Shown here piece by piece: positions 389 to 14,530 of a DNA stretch of 18,558 nt (positions are counted from its first letter, which is position 1; each line of letters opens with the position of its first letter). Position numbers and translations under genes: made by a program. The DNA comes from Patescibacteria group bacterium. GTDB taxonomy: Bacteria; Patescibacteriota; Patescibacteriia; Veblenbacterales; UBA10138. Under the pieces are notes generated by a model, which was not told the DNA's origin, ran no database searches, and saw only the letters and a program-made list of their open reading frames with translations. Location: contig DOPF01000018.1 in assembly GCA_003512705.1 (NCBI GenBank), positions 2,566 through 21,123 on the forward strand. Reading direction: 5' to 3'.

Positions 389-416
389 TATGAAAGGTGT
401 TATTTTAGCCGGCGGC
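389..416 (+). repeat. 28-bp direct repeat, left copy (rfbA start duplication)
   Basis: Bases 389-416 are identical to 1412-1439 and cover one base before the ATG plus the first nine codons of rfbA. Identity stops abruptly on both sides. The hexamer TAATAG follows this copy directly (417-422) and also precedes the right copy directly (1406-1411). This is the layout expected for a target duplication flanking an insert, with a 1023-bp period. Confidence 0.9.
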
Positions 417-419
417 TAA
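390..419 (+). pseudogene. rfbA: orphan 5' fragment of rfbA (9 codons then stop)
   Basis: ATG at 390 opens MKGVILAGG and then runs straight into TAA at 417-419. These nine codons are base-for-base the first nine of the intact rfbA at 1413. Lying 14 bp after the rfbD stop, this is most simply the original rfbA start, cut off by the 995-bp insert that follows. It could still be translated as a nonapeptide, but there is no sign that it has a function. Confidence 0.75.
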
Positions 420-441
420 TAGAGTCGGGGCAATTACTCCG

Positions 442-464
442 TATTGTTGATGACAATATTTTTT
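442..464 (+). terminator. possible intrinsic terminator after rfbD
   Basis: Stem TATTGT (442-447) and ACAATA (453-458) with loop TGATG are followed by six T (459-464). The stem is AT-rich and only 6 bp, so strength is doubtful. It sits inside the insert just after rfbD and would separate rfbD transcription from the downstream genes. Confidence 0.4.
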
Positions 465-478
465 CCCTTTATTTCTCA

Positions 479-496
479 CCCGCCCTTTTGGGCGGG
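479..496. repeat. GC-rich hairpin
   Basis: Perfect 7-bp stem CCCGCCC (479-485) and GGGCGGG (490-496) with loop TTTT. There is no T-run after it on the plus strand, so it is not a classic terminator. Its arms resemble the GC-rich hairpin at 18471-18496. The surrounding 420-625 stretch holds no gene I can support, only this hairpin, the upstream terminator-like stem and a short ATTACATG/ATTACATC/ATTACATC tandem near 584-608. Confidence 0.6.
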
Positions 497-625
497 GGGA
501 GTTTGTATTATTGGTTCTAATTTGGTCAATATTTATTATTCTTATTTATTACATTTTTATTTATTTTATTCCCGGCTGCACTATTACATGATTACATCAT
601 TACATCCCGAAAAATATCACGACAC

Positions 626-650
626 ATTTTGTCCCGATCGGGACATTTTA
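626..650. repeat. palindromic 25-mer, left copy, upstream of PaaX/Cas2-like gene
   Basis: The core TGTCCCGATCGGGACA (630-645) is a perfect 16-bp palindrome. The whole 25-mer is identical to 1240-1264 on the other side of the gene. It lies directly against the -35 region of the predicted promoter (646-651), so it is well placed as an operator for the downstream HTH protein. It may instead be a transposon-like boundary or a REP-type palindrome. Confidence 0.85.
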
Positions 651-674
651 CCGCCAATATATTTATGGTATACT
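646..674 (+). promoter_or_regulatory. putative promoter of the PaaX/Cas2-like gene
   Basis: TTTTAC (646-651), 17 bp, then TATACT (669-674), a 5/6 match to the -10 consensus. Transcription would start at about 681, within a few bases of the ATG at 683, giving a nearly leaderless mRNA. The -35 box abuts the palindrome at 630-645, so a protein bound there would compete with RNA polymerase. Confidence 0.5.
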
Positions 675-682
675 GTAAGTGT

Positions 683-1234
683 ATGAGTTCCAAAAAGTTA
701 CTACTGCCTATATCCAAATCTGTATTATACACCTTAGGTAGAATGGCCGAGGATGCTATCTGGTTTACTTTTAACTCCTACCGGTTCCGATCGGCTTTTA
801 ATAAAGGAGGGATTGAATATGCTCGATTATTAAAACGCCAATTGACCGAGGCGTCAATTAAACGATCTATTAGAGAGCTGGCGCGTAATAAATTTATCAA
901 AATAAAAAAGTTGGAAAAAAGACTCATAATCTCGCTAAATGACAAGGGCCGGTTAGCGTTGTTACAGAACCAGTTGCAGCATATAAAGCCGGGGGATGGT
1001 GTATGCACGGTAGTAGTATTTGATATACCAGAGGCGGCCAGTTCAGCTCGCCGGAAATTTCGCCGCTGGCTGAAAAATTGCCACTTTAAAATGTTGCAGC
1101 GCAGTGTTTGGATAACTGACCGTGATGTGGCTGATTTAGTGAATAAAGCCTTACCTAGTTTGCGACTGCCCGGTTGGATAATTACGCTAACTACACTATC
1201 GTCGATAGTCCATAAAAGTTATCAAAAGATTTAA
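683..1234 (+). CDS. PaaX-like transcriptional regulator with Cas2-like C-terminal domain
   Basis: 183 residues from ATG 683. The frame is open further upstream (ATG at 665, TTG at 629), but the TATACT box at 669-674 makes 683 the sensible start. Residues 1-100 look like a winged-helix domain (ASIKRSIRELARNKFIKIKK, then an ISLNDKGR wing). Residues 106-183 have the ferredoxin-like Cas2 pattern TVVVFDIPE (Asp114), RRKFRRWLKN and FKMLQRSVWI. This arrangement is known from PaaX-family C-terminal domains and is common in CPR genomes, where it is often labelled Cas2 although no CRISPR array is near; none is seen here. The likely role is DNA binding; nuclease activity is unproven. The gene sits alone in an insert splitting rfbD from rfbA and is bracketed by two identical palindromic 25-mers, suggesting autoregulation or a role in moving the segment. 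Confidence 0.8.
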   Translation: MSSKKLLLPISKSVLYTLGRMAEDAIWFTFNSYRFRSAFNKGGIEYARLLKRQLTEASIKRSIRELARNKFIKIKKLEKRLIISLNDKGRLALLQNQLQHIKPGDGVCTVVVFDIPEAASSARRKFRRWLKNCHFKMLQRSVWITDRDVADLVNKALPSLRLPGWIITLTTLSSIVHKSYQKI

Positions 1235-1239
1235 AACAT

Positions 1240-1264
1240 ATTTTGTCCCGATCGGGACATTTTA
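1240..1264. repeat. palindromic 25-mer, right copy, downstream of PaaX/Cas2-like gene
   Basis: Identical to 626-650, with the palindrome core at 1244-1259, nine bases after the stop codon at 1234. As RNA it would form an 8-bp stem with little or no loop followed by TTTTA, so a weak terminator role is possible. Its exact identity with the upstream copy argues for a protein-binding or element-boundary role. Confidence 0.85.
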
Positions 1265-1377
1265 TGACCAGCGTATTTTTTCAGATGGTGTTTTATTAAT
1301 GACTGCATCAAATCTGCTGTACACTGATATCAAGAATGTCCACCTACTAGGGTCTAGGCAGTGGCGTCGCGGCATAC

Positions 1378-1415
1378 TTGTATAGAAGGACAGTTTTTCA
1401 TACACTAATAGTATG
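1378..1415 (+). promoter_or_regulatory. putative rfbA promoter supplied by the insert
   Basis: TTGTAT (1378-1383), 17 bp, TACACT (1401-1406). The start of transcription would fall at about the ATG (1413), so rfbA may be leaderless. An inverted repeat CATAC-N7-GTATG (1399-1403 and 1411-1415) spans the -10 box and start codon. The promoter lies in the inserted segment and would replace read-through from rfbD. The match is modest. Confidence 0.4.
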
Positions 1416-1439
1416 AAAGGTGTTATTTTAGCCGGCGGC
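1412..1439 (+). repeat. 28-bp direct repeat, right copy (intact rfbA start)
   Basis: This is the second copy of the 28-mer and forms the start of the full-length rfbA reading frame. It is preceded by TAATAG (1406-1411), the same hexamer that follows the left copy. Confidence 0.9.
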
Positions 1440-8482: not shown

Positions 8483-8500
8483 TATGTCCAGCTGGACATA
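8483..8500. repeat. 18-bp perfect palindrome upstream of an unknown gene
   Basis: TATGTCCAGCTGGACATA is fully self-complementary. It belongs to the same TGTCC...GGACA family as the palindromes at 626, 1240 and 14123, and its right arm plus flank (GGACATATTTCC, 8494-8505) is exactly shared with 14143-14154. It lies between the pyrG stop and the next promoter and may be an operator or a dispersed repeat. Confidence 0.75.
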
Positions 8501-9212: not shown

Positions 9213-12200
9213 ATGTTTAGAAAATTAGTACCCATAAGTTTGCTCATACCCTTGGTTGTAAGTGGCGTGTTGGTTTACGCTTTTTTACCCGGCGCGCAAG
9301 CCGCGTCCGATTTAGTAATTTATGAGGACAGTATTACGCCACCGTGGCAGGAAGTTTCTTGGGGCGCGTCGGCTAAAGATTTGACATCTCCAGAGCAAGT
9401 GTTGAGTGGCAGTAAATCAATTAAAGTTACTTTATCCGCCTGGGGTGCGCTGCGTTTGCGTTCCGGCCCGTGGGGACAGCCTAACAATATTAACGCTGGT
9501 GATTATTCGAGTTTAAGCATGAGTGTATACGGCGGTGCCAATGGCGGCAACGTGGTTTTAAAATTGGAAAACGATTCTAATCAAACCTTTCCCACCAAAT
9601 CATTTAGCCTGGCGGCCAACACCTGGAATGCAATATTAGGAACTATGGCCGAACTTAATCCGTCGAGCCAAGTGATCCACGGTTTTTATTTACAAGAACA
9701 CAACGGGCAAACTAAAACTTATTACGTTGATGATATTAAATTCGTAGGCTTAGGCTTAAATGATGGGGGAGGATCAGCGCCGCCCAGCGATACTTCCCTG
9801 CCAACTGTAAGTTTGTCACAACCAGTCAGCGGCGCTACCGTATCGGGTACTATAACTTTAACCGCAACGGCGAGCGACAATGTCGGTGTGGTTGGCGTGC
9901 AATTTAAAGTTGATGATCAAAATATTGCCAGTGAAGATGTTACCAGTCCTTATAGCGTAAATTGGGATTCTGCGTTAGTCGCTGATGGATCACATACTGT
10001 ATCAGCTGTCGCCCGCGATGCTGCTGGAAATATCAGTACGCCGCAATCGTTAACAGTTACGGTTAGTAATATAGTGGTTACGCCGCCAAACTCAACGCCA
10101 AATCCGCCCTCGTCGGCTGGTTCCGGGTCATCGGCCCCCAGCAATTTATGGGTGACGGCTTACATATCATCTTGGGAATTCAATACCCAATCAGGAGATG
10201 GTAATTGGGGTTCTTATACCGAGCCAGAAATTGATTGGGATGCTTTTACTCATTTAATATTTTTTGCCACTGGGCTTGATGGTAGTGGTGGGTGTTGCCG
10301 AGTGGCGACCAACAGTAACTGGAATGACAATCGTTTGAAAAAAGCAGTGGCCGCGGCTCATGCTAACGGTAAACCAATTTTATTTAGCGTCGGCGGCGCT
10401 GGCGGCGGCGGGTGGAATTCGGCCTTGTCTAATTCAGCTACACGCGCTACCGCGGTAACGAACCTTATTAGTTTTATGAATCAATACCAGTTTGATGGTA
10501 TTGATTTGGATCCAGAAGAAAGCACTATCACTGGCGCGGGAAACTCTTGGGATGATTTCATAGACGTTTTTGCCCAAGAGATAAAAGCCAAAATGAATTT
10601 ACAGACGGCTTATTATGATGTGAGTAAGAAACCAATTTTAACGGCCGCTATTTTCAATAATTTTAATGATTGGGCGCGAGCCGAGCCTTATTTGGACCAA
10701 ATTAATATAATGAGCTATGACCAAACTGGCACCTGGACTAAAGAAACTTGGCATAATAATGCCGCCCAAAATATTAAGAATCCAGACGGCACTTGTGCTA
10801 CACTGGACATCGCCGAAGGCAATGGAAATACTTGTATGGCCACTATAGAATCAGATGTTGATGATTTAATTGCTCAAGGCGTACCCAAAAGTAAAATTGG
10901 CGGTGGCATTGATTTTAATGGCTGGGTTTGGCGCGGTGGGACAAAATTAAATGATAGTAGCAGTGCTCCTTTGACGCCGCGTGACCGTTGGGGGACGACG
11001 CCGGCGCAAGTATCAGTCGGTACCGCGTCAGCCAATTCCGATTGTAATTTCCGTTCGACGGTTGAAACTAGGTATTACAATATAAAAAAATGTTACCTGG
11101 ATAAATATCCCAGTTCAATTAAATGGGATTCTTATAGCAATGTTTCATATTTTGCCTTAGATAACTCGGGAACAGCCGATGATGTTTATATAACATTTCA
11201 GGATGCCAAATCGGTTACTAAGGCGGTTGAGTTTATAAAAAATAAAGGCATTGGTGGAATGATTTTGTGGGAAATAGGCGGCGGCTATTTAGGAAAAAAT
11301 AATTTTTCCACTTATTCTGGCCAACGAGACGAGCTATTACAGGCTGTAAAGGCGGCCACACTCGGCGTTACCATGCCACCACCACCCACTGGCGACACCC
11401 AGGCTCCCGCCGTCTCCATTACCGCGCCCGCGAGCGGCGTGACTGTCTCTGGCACCACAGTCACCATATCAGCCACGGCTTCTGACAACGTTGGCGTTAT
11501 TGGTGTGCAGTTTAAGCTTGACGGTGTGAATCTTGGCAGTGAAGATACCAGTAGCCCCCACAGTATCATCTGGAATACCACCCAATCCTTGAATGGATTT
11601 CATACTCTTACTGTCGTGGCTAGGGACGCGGGTGGCAATCAGGCCACTGCTACGAGCGTTATCGTAACAGTGCAGAACGGCACGCCACCGCCAGCCGGTA
11701 GCGATACCGTGCCGCCGGTCGTGGCGCTCACCGAACCCGCGTCGGGGGCATTTGTCTCAGGTAGTGTGACGCTCGTGGCTACTGCTTCCGACAATACCGC
11801 CGTTACCAAAGTGGAATTCATCGTCGACGGCGTGGTGGTGGCGAGCGACACTAGTACGCCGTACAGTACCAGCTGGTTAGTATCAGGTGCTGGCCGCATT
11901 AGACTGGCGGCGCGCGCTTATGACGCTGCGGGTAATGTTGGTACAGCAACAAGTATTGAGGTGAATGTGTCCTCGGGTTTAAGCGATGGGGGAACGGCTG
12001 GTTCTGGTAATACCGGCGGTTCATCGTCTAATGGTTCTTCGGGTAGTGCCGGTTCATCCACCTCGGGAGGTGGTGCTAGCGGCGCTATTAATTTTAATAA
12101 TTTATCGCAGTCTAGCCCCGTGGTACTAAATGAGACCTCTAAAACCGAATCACAAGAAATATCGGGTCATAATCAATTTGTTAATTTGGATTCAGTGGGG

Positions 12201-12680
12201 ATCAGTATCTATAGCCGAATAGTTGCATTAAATTCTGATCTAGAAATTAATAAACGCTACGCCATCGCCTACTTTTTACAAAATGGCACCACTAATACGT
12301 TGTGGTTGGGAATGGGTGAGCGGGCTGGAGTTGTGGATAGTTTTAAGTCAGCCTTCGCGCGTTTGCCGCAAACTGATTTAGATTGGCAAGATGTTATAAA
12401 AATTGCCAACGGTCGTTGGCCGTCTAGGTTAAGTCCAGAGCGTGAGCAGGCAGTGTACACTCATTATAAGAAAATATATTTAAAAGACCCCGATCGGAAA
12501 AATCCTCATGATGACGCGGCCATAACTATTATGGCTTATGGCTTAAGAAATCCGAATCGCAATTTAAATTCCGAAAAAACAGCCATTAAATACTTTAAAG
12601 ATATTTACGGACGAGTGCCGGCTAGCGCCAGTGATTGGGACATTATGCGGGCCATTGCTTATTCCGGGGCCGTTAGATAA
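9213..12680 (+). CDS. secreted multidomain GH18 chitinase-like glycoside hydrolase
   Basis: 1155 residues. Signal peptide 1-30 (cleavage after GAQA likely). Residues 33-180 resemble a beta-sandwich carbohydrate-binding module (ending YYVDDIKFVG). Ig-like repeat 1 spans 197-286. The GH18 barrel is about 312-715 with GKPILFSVGGAG, the catalytic DGIDLDPE (428-435, acid Glu435), INIMSYD (497-503) and GGMILWE (681-687), so all catalytic signatures are intact. Ig-like repeats 2 and 3 are at 732-821 and 835-919, a Ser/Gly linker at 921-960, and a C-terminal domain at about 965-1155 that I do not recognise. The family cleaves beta-1,4-GlcNAc polymers (chitin) or related glycans by substrate-assisted catalysis. 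It likely acts outside the cell on host, prey or environmental polymer. It is a single-gene unit with its own promoter and terminator. DNA for repeats 2-3 is more GC-rich than the rest. Confidence 0.9.
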   Translation: MFRKLVPISLLIPLVVSGVLVYAFLPGAQAASDLVIYEDSITPPWQEVSWGASAKDLTSPEQVLSGSKSIKVTLSAWGALRLRSGPWGQPNNINAGDYSSLSMSVYGGANGGNVVLKLENDSNQTFPTKSFSLAANTWNAILGTMAELNPSSQVIHGFYLQEHNGQTKTYYVDDIKFVGLGLNDGGGSAPPSDTSLPTVSLSQPVSGATVSGTITLTATASDNVGVVGVQFKVDDQNIASEDVTSPYSVNWDSALVADGSHTVSAVARDAAGNISTPQSLTVTVSNIVVTPPNSTPNPPSSAGSGSSAPSNLWVTAYISSWEFNTQSGDGNWGSYTEPEIDWDAFTHLIFFATGLDGSGGCCRVATNSNWNDNRLKKAVAAAHANGKPILFSVGGAGGGGWNSALSNSATRATAVTNLISFMNQYQFDGIDLDPEESTITGAGNSWDDFIDVFAQEIKAKMNLQTAYYDVSKKPILTAAIFNNFNDWARAEPYLDQINIMSYDQTGTWTKETWHNNAAQNIKNPDGTCATLDIAEGNGNTCMATIESDVDDLIAQGVPKSKIGGGIDFNGWVWRGGTKLNDSSSAPLTPRDRWGTTPAQVSVGTASANSDCNFRSTVETRYYNIKKCYLDKYPSSIKWDSYSNVSYFALDNSGTADDVYITFQDAKSVTKAVEFIKNKGIGGMILWEIGGGYLGKNNFSTYSGQRDELLQAVKAATLGVTMPPPPTGDTQAPAVSITAPASGVTVSGTTVTISATASDNVGVIGVQFKLDGVNLGSEDTSSPHSIIWNTTQSLNGFHTLTVVARDAGGNQATATSVIVTVQNGTPPPAGSDTVPPVVALTEPASGAFVSGSVTLVATASDNTAVTKVEFIVDGVVVASDTSTPYSTSWLVSGAGRIRLAARAYDAAGNVGTATSIEVNVSSGLSDGGTAGSGNTGGSSSNGSSGSAGSSTSGGGASGAINFNNLSQSSPVVLNETSKTESQEISGHNQFVNLDSVGISIYSRIVALNSDLEINKRYAIAYFLQNGTTNTLWLGMGERAGVVDSFKSAFARLPQTDLDWQDVIKIANGRWPSRLSPEREQAVYTHYKKIYLKDPDRKNPHDDAAITIMAYGLRNPNRNLNSEKTAIKYFKDIYGRVPASASDWDIMRAIAYSGAVR

Positions 12681-14122: not shown

Positions 14123-14158
14123 TTGGGGAAATATGTCCGATCGGACATATTTCCCCAA
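14123..14158. repeat. 36-bp perfect palindrome (left end of a 408-bp noncoding block)
   Basis: Arms 14123-14140 and 14141-14158 are fully complementary, reading TTGGGGAAATATGTCCGA outward in. The core TATGTCCGATCGGACATA is of the same type as the palindromes at 630, 1244 and 8483. A nearly identical outer arm recurs at 14493-14530. Confidence 0.92.
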
Positions 14159-14229
14159 AGGAGTTCATCCCCTTTAGTACTAAAGCCATGGTGATTTCAT
14201 TTATCAAAATTCACTTGACACTTCGACGA

Positions 14230-14254
14230 CAAGCCCCAATGTTTAGCATTGGGG
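14230..14254. repeat. CCCCAATG hairpin repeat, copy 1
   Basis: Stem CCCCAATG (14234-14241) and CATTGGGG (14247-14254) preceded by CAAG. The 25 bases match 14315-14339 at 23 positions, 85 bp apart. No T-run follows, so it is not a terminator. A smaller hairpin AGCCC-GCC-GGGCT (14268-14280) lies between the copies. Confidence 0.75.
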
Positions 14255-14314
14255 AACCAGAGTCGCCAGCCCGCCGGGCTTGTTGCTCAGTGTCGCGCGC
14301 GAAATATAGATAGT

Positions 14315-14339
14315 CAAGCCCCAATGCTTGGCATTGGGG
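14315..14339. repeat. CCCCAATG hairpin repeat, copy 2
   Basis: Stem CCCCAATGC (14319-14327) and GCATTGGGG (14331-14339), loop TTG, preceded by CAAG as in copy 1. One of the two differences from copy 1 extends the stem to a full ninth Watson-Crick pair, and the hairpin is kept, suggesting that the structure matters. Confidence 0.75.
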
Positions 14340-14353
14340 TTACCTAAGCGCGC

Positions 14354-14382
14354 TTGACATTTTTTGGCTTATGGGCTAAGAT
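14354..14382 (+). promoter_or_regulatory. promoter-like element inside the noncoding block
   Basis: TTGACA (14354-14359), exactly 17 bp, TAAGAT (14377-14382). It points into 100 bp with no protein gene that ends in a seven-T run (14476-14482). Confidence 0.5.
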
Positions 14383-14388
14383 GGCAAA

Positions 14389-14482
14389 AAATAATAGCTA
14401 TAGCGTCAAGGGGCCGATTTGGGGTTGGTATGACCCACTTCACCAATCACCGGTGGATTAGAGACAAGTCGACCCTTTTTTT
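14389..14482 (+). ncRNA. candidate small RNA 2, family not recognised
   Basis: About 94 nt from the predicted start to the T-run at 14476-14482. GGTTGGT (14423-14429) can pair with ACCAATC (14442-14448), or GGGTTGGT (14422-14429) with GTCGACCC (14468-14475) just before the T-run, so the two folds compete. The second fold would be a wobble-rich terminator stem. Evidence is limited to promoter, T-run and pairing; it may instead be part of a repeat element. Confidence 0.3.
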
Positions 14483-14492
14483 GATTTTTAGC

Positions 14493-14530
14493 CTTGGGGA
14501 AATATATGCGATCGCATACATTTCCCCAAG
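14493..14530. repeat. 38-bp near-perfect palindrome (right end of the noncoding block)
   Basis: Arms 14493-14511 and 14512-14530 are complementary except for one pair. The outer arm CTTGGGGAAATAT matches that of the 14123-14158 palindrome, while the core is ATGCGATCGCAT in place of TGTCCGATCGGACA. The central CGATCG is kept. Confidence 0.9.

Follow-up and report, generated by a model that had tools for sequence, protein, structure and literature searches.

The window, that is, the whole stretch of 18,558 nucleotides analysed here, opens on an rfbD-rfbA locus in which the two genes are separated by a 995-bp insert carrying one PaaX/Cas2-like gene. The insert is bordered by an exact duplication of the start of rfbA, and the gene at 683-1234 is bracketed, further in, by two copies of a palindrome that the initial annotation of this DNA did not record. 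The features used below, with the strand where there is one, are the following.

49-375, + strand: 3′ part of rfbD (RmlD-like), clipped by the window start (Pfam RmlD_sub_bind, 84.6 bits)
389-416, + strand: left copy of the 28-bp direct repeat (exact), rfbA codons 1-9, a dead end with a stop after MKGVILAGG
417-1411: insert of 995 bp, with TAATAG at its inner ends (417-422 and 1406-1411), as read from the sequence
622-664: predicted left end of the palindrome-bounded unit, a 43-nt repeat with the palindrome TGTCCCGATCGGGACA at 630-645
683-1234, + strand: PaaX/Cas2-like gene, 183 aa from the ATG at 683, a winged helix and then a Cas2-like ferredoxin domain (Pfam, fold model, and similarity to PaaX and Cas2 in Foldseek and VIA)
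1236-1278: predicted right end of the unit, a 43-nt repeat with 84% identity to its left counterpart, holding the palindrome TGTCCCGATCGGGACA at 1244-1259
1412-1439, + strand: right copy of the 28-bp direct repeat (exact), start of the intact rfbA
1413-2141, + strand: rfbA (glucose-1-phosphate thymidylyltransferase-like), intact (Pfam NTP_transferase, 211 bits)
8483-8500: lone palindrome TATGTCCAGCTGGACATA between genes, with no PaaX-like gene nearby
14123-14158: perfect 36-nt palindrome, the left one of two that have no PaaX-like gene
14493-14530: 38-nt palindrome, near-perfect, the right one of the same two, similar to the palindromes of locus L006

Much of what was first said of this locus is confirmed: positions 389-416 and 1412-1439 are identical over 28 nt, TAATAG lies next to the duplication on both inner sides, and the left copy of the rfbA start terminates directly after its nine codons. 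The left side retains the rfbD stop, 14 nt, and the ATG. The proposal that the insert splits an operon is also borne out, as a search for the empty site found rfbD running directly into rfbA in five of seven same-family relatives (G001, G004, G005, G006, and G007), and rfbA of the window is intact; on inspection, G003 has a different sequence upstream of rfbA, and in G002 the contig ends inside rfbA. The gene that we take to be rfbD in the relatives' loci was recognised by eye from its C-terminal sequence. In 704 control pairs, each combining the left flank of a locus with the right flank of a different one, the longest exact repeat was 17 nt, and the 28-nt repeat is therefore beyond chance. 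A new promoter had been proposed before the right rfbA copy, but a consensus scan of 370-1450 found one promoter-like site (shuffle mean 3.7), which lies at 647-674, before the PaaX-like gene.

The protein encoded within the insert carries the Cas2-like domain initially assigned to it, with profile matches to PaaX_M (48.1 bits, cut-off 24), CRISPR_Cas2 (28.3 bits, cut-off 23.8), and TIGR01573 (26.8 bits, cut-off 24.5), and with agreement from the fold model and the Foldseek and VIA comparisons. PaaX_M and CRISPR_Cas2 are its only Pfam domains, no further PaaX model being found at E 0.01. Similarity to Cas2 in sequence and fold centres on D114 and on Q139-S141-V142-W143, and the Cas2-like domain has an invariant Asp closing its first strand. 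PaaX_M is present in 27 of 27 relatives. An HUH-like motif occurs in none of the 31 rows of alignment A1 and in one of the 27 rows of alignment A5 (P0019), and a profile search for Y1_Tnp gave no match above the cut-off in the eight family genomes, with 5 of 14 control genomes positive. The insert, whose sole gene is the PaaX/Cas2-like one, contains no Cas1, and neither a CRISPR array nor cas1 lies beside that gene, the neighbours being rfbD and rfbA. The protein belongs to a cluster of three member sequences on five contigs, and the window genome carries related genes (E ≤1e-3) in nine places. Among related sequences, P0002 is 82% identical and P0003 64%. A genome collection yielded no close relatives of the protein, viral contigs no relative, and an Rfam search no match; a PADLOC scan returned only weak Cas2, CARF, and other models.

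Bracketing by palindromes is a trait of the gene family. Of seven other loci recovered by the initial search, five have a perfect palindrome close to the gene, and all seven have palindromes when mismatches are allowed. In a flank test of 61 loci from the family and class, 58 of which had enough flank, the upstream and downstream 260-nt flanks had a stretch of at least 14 nt in common at 37 loci, against 1.8% of 3306 swapped pairs, and a stretch of at least 16 nt at 32 of the 58, against 0.6%. By group, the 14-nt threshold was reached at 20 of 28 family loci and 17 of 30 outside the family; the 21 loci without such a stretch include eight family loci, several of which have a diverged palindrome on one or both sides. 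The palindromes match within an element and differ between elements.

Comparison of copies suggests where the copied DNA ends. Between L003 and L004, both in the window genome, DNA similarity covers 1409-2072 of L003, whose palindromes span 1406-2076; between L004 and L006, it covers 1386-2112, about 50 and 20 nt past the L004 palindromes (1433 and 2089), and the palindrome cores of these two copies show the same difference on both sides. The alignment of L005 with L007 is confined to the gene. Because the similarity between copies ends at or near the palindromes and the cores differ alike on both sides, the copied unit consists of the gene plus its two palindromes. Judged from these alignments and the flank test, what repeats in the family is the stretch from one palindrome to the other, which would place the unit of the window at about 622-1278.

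Related palindromes also stand alone. The core pattern TGTCCN{4,6}GGACA, unlike the total palindrome count, separates genomes: it has 87 sites in the eight family genomes, against 11 sites for a control pattern, 54 against 20 in 12 further genomes that have the gene, and 78 against 43 in 37 genomes without it, where it is thus also somewhat above control. Over these 57 genomes, site number is correlated with gene number (Spearman 0.53, p 3e-5; control pattern 0.13), and G003 has the gene with no pattern site. The window genome (G000) holds 25 sites (control 1) and G005 holds 16 (control 0). In G000, 8 of the sites flank the genes, 10 stand alone and have a palindromic core, and in 7 the centre is not palindromic; the corresponding numbers for G005 are 4, 10, and 2. 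Since the stretches of the own-genome census were chosen from contigs with known matches, only the whole-genome pattern counts are unbiased. Long-palindrome counts in one census were inflated by runs of N, and long-palindrome totals do not separate genomes, the gene-less G013 having 17 even palindromes in 199 kb and G005 16 in 200 kb, those of G013 being of other sequence types. In two stretches of the same control genome (L174 and L179), an unrelated palindrome type, GACCAGTCAGTCGCGACTGACTGGTC with variants, occurs four times in 200 kb.

In the window genome and G005, 28 palindromic-core sites were examined, with four lone ones left out. With crude gene calling, none of the 28 lies inside an open frame of at least 120 aa, and the 16 lone sites among them divide into four between convergent genes, nine between tandem genes, one between divergent genes, and two of unclear setting. 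The 44-nt palindrome beside the L039 gene of G005 recurs exactly, alone, between convergent genes at G005:C6:31961, with 0 nt of flank in common. At G005:C12:4348 and 4484, palindromes of different arm types stand 136 nt apart with no gene between them, in the manner of a REP doublet. At the 28 sites, the two arms pair at 229 of the 280 positions lying 9-18 from the centre, compared with a mean of 110 and a maximum of 157 in 2000 permutations; as the permutation mixes palindrome types, this shows that the arms change together, whether by selection or by template-switch correction.

Presence and absence were followed through the eight family genomes by one search with twelve neighbour-gene pieces and inspection of the intervals. 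A unit between ligA and gatC is found in the window genome only, and one between uvrB and ruvA in G004 only, each being absent from the seven other family genomes; the uvrB-ruvA interval of the window genome contains a run of N, yet is too short for a unit, and that of G003 is long (1.6 kb) and has no such palindrome. In this G003 interval (L205, on contig C27), there are open frames whose sequence may be that of a broken reverse transcriptase. Other copies are common to several genomes: those beside gyrA to G003, G007, and G001, and those beside a murE-like gene to G004 and G006. The murE-side genes of G004 and G006 are sisters in the tree, as are the gyrA-side genes of G003 and G007, and copies of the window genome cluster by genome (L003/L004/L006 and L005/L007). 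We infer a history of slow gain by copying combined with vertical descent, in which some copies are old; movement of the unit is likewise suggested by gains deduced from draft genomes. The initial idea of a possible new type of mobile segment is supported to this extent, because units are missing from several sites in relatives and palindromes have been copied to unlinked sites. Two further arrangements were seen among the loci. A PaaX-like gene lies between the same two neighbours in two genera, in opposite orientation (L059 in G002 and L078 in G007), and units stand beside the same type of membrane-protein gene at L002 (G000), L058 (G005), and L061 and L083 (both G001), though their own genes are not closest kin.

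The 28-bp repeat had been linked to a duplication of the kind made by Cas1-Cas2, and an insert that holds a Cas2-fold gene and has an exact 28-nt repeat at its borders would suit a target duplication of the element, which the Cas2-like protein would generate in the manner of spacer insertion. Its position and its singularity make this hardly credible: the repeats stand 205 bp (left) and 133 bp (right) outside the palindrome-bounded unit, the insert has one gene only and no Cas1 within it, and the proposed search for similar direct repeats around other PaaX/Cas2-like genes gave nothing comparable at 28 other family loci. Across 29 loci, with up to 400 nt per side, the longest direct repeats after the 28-mer measure 15 nt (L040), 12 nt (L004), and 11 nt (L039). 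At the window genome's eight loci, exact repeats of at least 12 nt within 900 nt are limited to the palindromes, an A-rich 12-mer (L004), and the 28-mer. Beyond the L040 match, translated comparison of left and right flanks returned mostly palindromes, plus a glycosyltransferase-like pair at L089 (swapped pairs 0/60). An arrival of the 995-bp segment by illegitimate or homologous joining, through fill-in of a staggered break, a template switch, or a circle sharing 28 bp, with the PaaX-like unit as a passenger, is improbable as an account in its own right; it concerns the duplication and is compatible with the reading of the unit preferred below. The insert flanks 417-621 and 1279-1411 agree with it, having no further copy in the eight family genomes (short AT-rich matches occur in G005 and G006 only), as does a duplication unlike anything at the other copies, whereas no donor locus was found. 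An assembly artefact at the repeat appears very improbable: the genome is a draft of 784,533 bases in 84 contigs with runs of N, but both junctions fall inside a single contig, where the genes to either side make sense, and the protein's cluster spans five contigs, although the cluster does not show the junctions. Since the 28-bp repeat lies outside the unit, in DNA that has no other copy in the eight family genomes, and has no likeness at the 28 other family loci compared, we treat it as a trace of the joining of this segment to rfbA; the outer 338 bp and the duplication would then reflect a separate step, the joining of the segment into rfbA.

The 15-nt match at L040 was considered as a target duplication and rejected, as it consists of a glycosyltransferase-like gene end and a diverged second end; the right flank of this locus (G004:C74) holds a diverged second copy of the glycosyltransferase-like 3′ end present in its left flank.

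Palindromes of the REP type are known together with Y1 transposases. RAYT systems, as described in PMC2817692, have a small gene between two copies of a palindrome, the palindromes being gene-specific and further copies standing between genes; the present family is alike in all these respects, its additional intergenic copies occurring singly or as close pairs. The maintenance of palindromic symmetry by matched changes also resembles REPINs as portrayed in PMC3116915. The gene is flanked by its own palindrome (at least 14 nt at 37/58 loci, against 1.8% of swapped pairs), and further intergenic copies exist, below typical REP numbers: 10 lone palindromic-core sites in each of G000 and G005, against the 37 to 427 perfect palindrome copies given for the RAYT case study in PMC2817692. 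The palindromes differ from REPs in being perfect through the centre in the 28 examined sites, a selected set, and the protein matches PaaX_M and Cas2 in place of a Y1 (HUH) domain. Because the defining Y1 domain was not found, we do not file the family under REP/RAYT despite its like layout and spread.

Similar partial likenesses extend to other systems. IS200/IS605 elements have hairpin-forming ends, and the tiny single-gene unit shares with them such ends and the want of a regular target duplication; it differs in its gene without a Y1 domain, Y1_Tnp being above cut-off in none of the eight family genomes. PaaX regulators are three-part proteins of about 300 aa. The window protein has their PaaX_M Cas2-like domain (48.1 bits against a cut-off of 24), but at 183 aa is short of the 305 residues of the solved chain 8a39, with other PaaX domains not reported, and unlike them it has matched palindromes on both sides and occurs in multi-copy units. 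The Cas2 of CRISPR systems is similar in domain sequence and fold, whereas the window Cas2 domain is fused to a winged helix, with no Cas1 or CRISPR array in the insert. Casposons would likewise join Cas-type proteins to mobile DNA, but use Cas1, which the single gene of the insert does not encode.

Taken together, the insertion in the window is real and its core belongs to a palindrome-bounded, multi-copy family with a single gene; we consider it somewhat probable that this family is REP/RAYT-like, with a winged-helix and Cas2-fold protein replacing the Y1 transposase. In such a system, a protein dimer would recognise its own palindrome through the winged helix, the Cas2-like domain with its invariant Asp might nick or hold the palindrome or its hairpin or cruciform, and repair would then place a further palindrome copy, either alone or together with the gene, at a different intergenic site; recombination between two flanking palindromes may be a further source of lone palindromes. 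A tentative extension is that a new class of palindromic element is mobilised by the Cas2-fold, winged-helix protein itself, which would recognise, process, and spread its own palindrome with or without the gene and so give Cas2-type proteins a part in disseminating repeats beyond CRISPR. Against the element reading, no target duplication recurs at the other family loci compared, movement is deduced from draft genomes, some copies are old, 21 of 58 loci lack a common 14-nt stretch, lone copies are few for REPs, G003 has the gene with no pattern site, gene-less genomes also lie somewhat above control, and the gene-less G013 has about as many even palindromes as G005. The protein might as well be a DNA-binding regulator, and its family has no known role in moving DNA.

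The winged helix and the PaaX_M domain would also suit an autoregulating PaaX-type transcription factor, an unlikely reading that nonetheless deserves weight, in which the upstream palindrome would serve as operator, its downstream partner as another operator or a two-way terminator, and the lone palindromes as the operators of a regulon; ordinary duplication and transfer would account for the family's spread. Regulation is favoured by the position of the window's upstream palindrome next to the promoter-like site (647-674), by the terminator-like character of its downstream palindrome on either strand, and by the vertical conservation of some copies. It is more difficult to reconcile with the exact recurrence of a 44-nt palindrome at an unlinked site, with symmetry that continues far past the core and is more than an operator requires, with 4 of 16 lone sites between convergent genes, where neither gene's promoter is expected, and with matched palindromes that accompany the gene to new sites.

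A search of the open-licence PMC literature found no paper that describes palindromes on both sides of PaaX/Cas2-like genes. If the REP/RAYT-like reading holds, the family would represent a second, independent solution for palindrome spread, in Patescibacteria with their small genomes, and would suggest that Cas2-like proteins have a non-CRISPR role in DNA mobility; it would also account for part of the solo PaaX/Cas2-annotated genes in these genomes.

Elsewhere in the window, the two long palindromes within 14123-14530 stand 335 nt apart with no PaaX-like gene between them, and could be a gene-less unit or a chance pair of lone palindromes. Between them, at 14214-14361, lies a repeat of about 150 bp with two hairpins of the CCCCAATG...CATTGGGG type, which recurs at 15 further places in the window genome over at least 66 nt at 88% identity or more (or at 84% over 135 nt) and in many shorter copies as well, several of them at contig ends. 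At 9213-12680, the window also encodes a 1155-aa secreted protein that presumably resembles a family 18 chitinase with Ig-like repeats.
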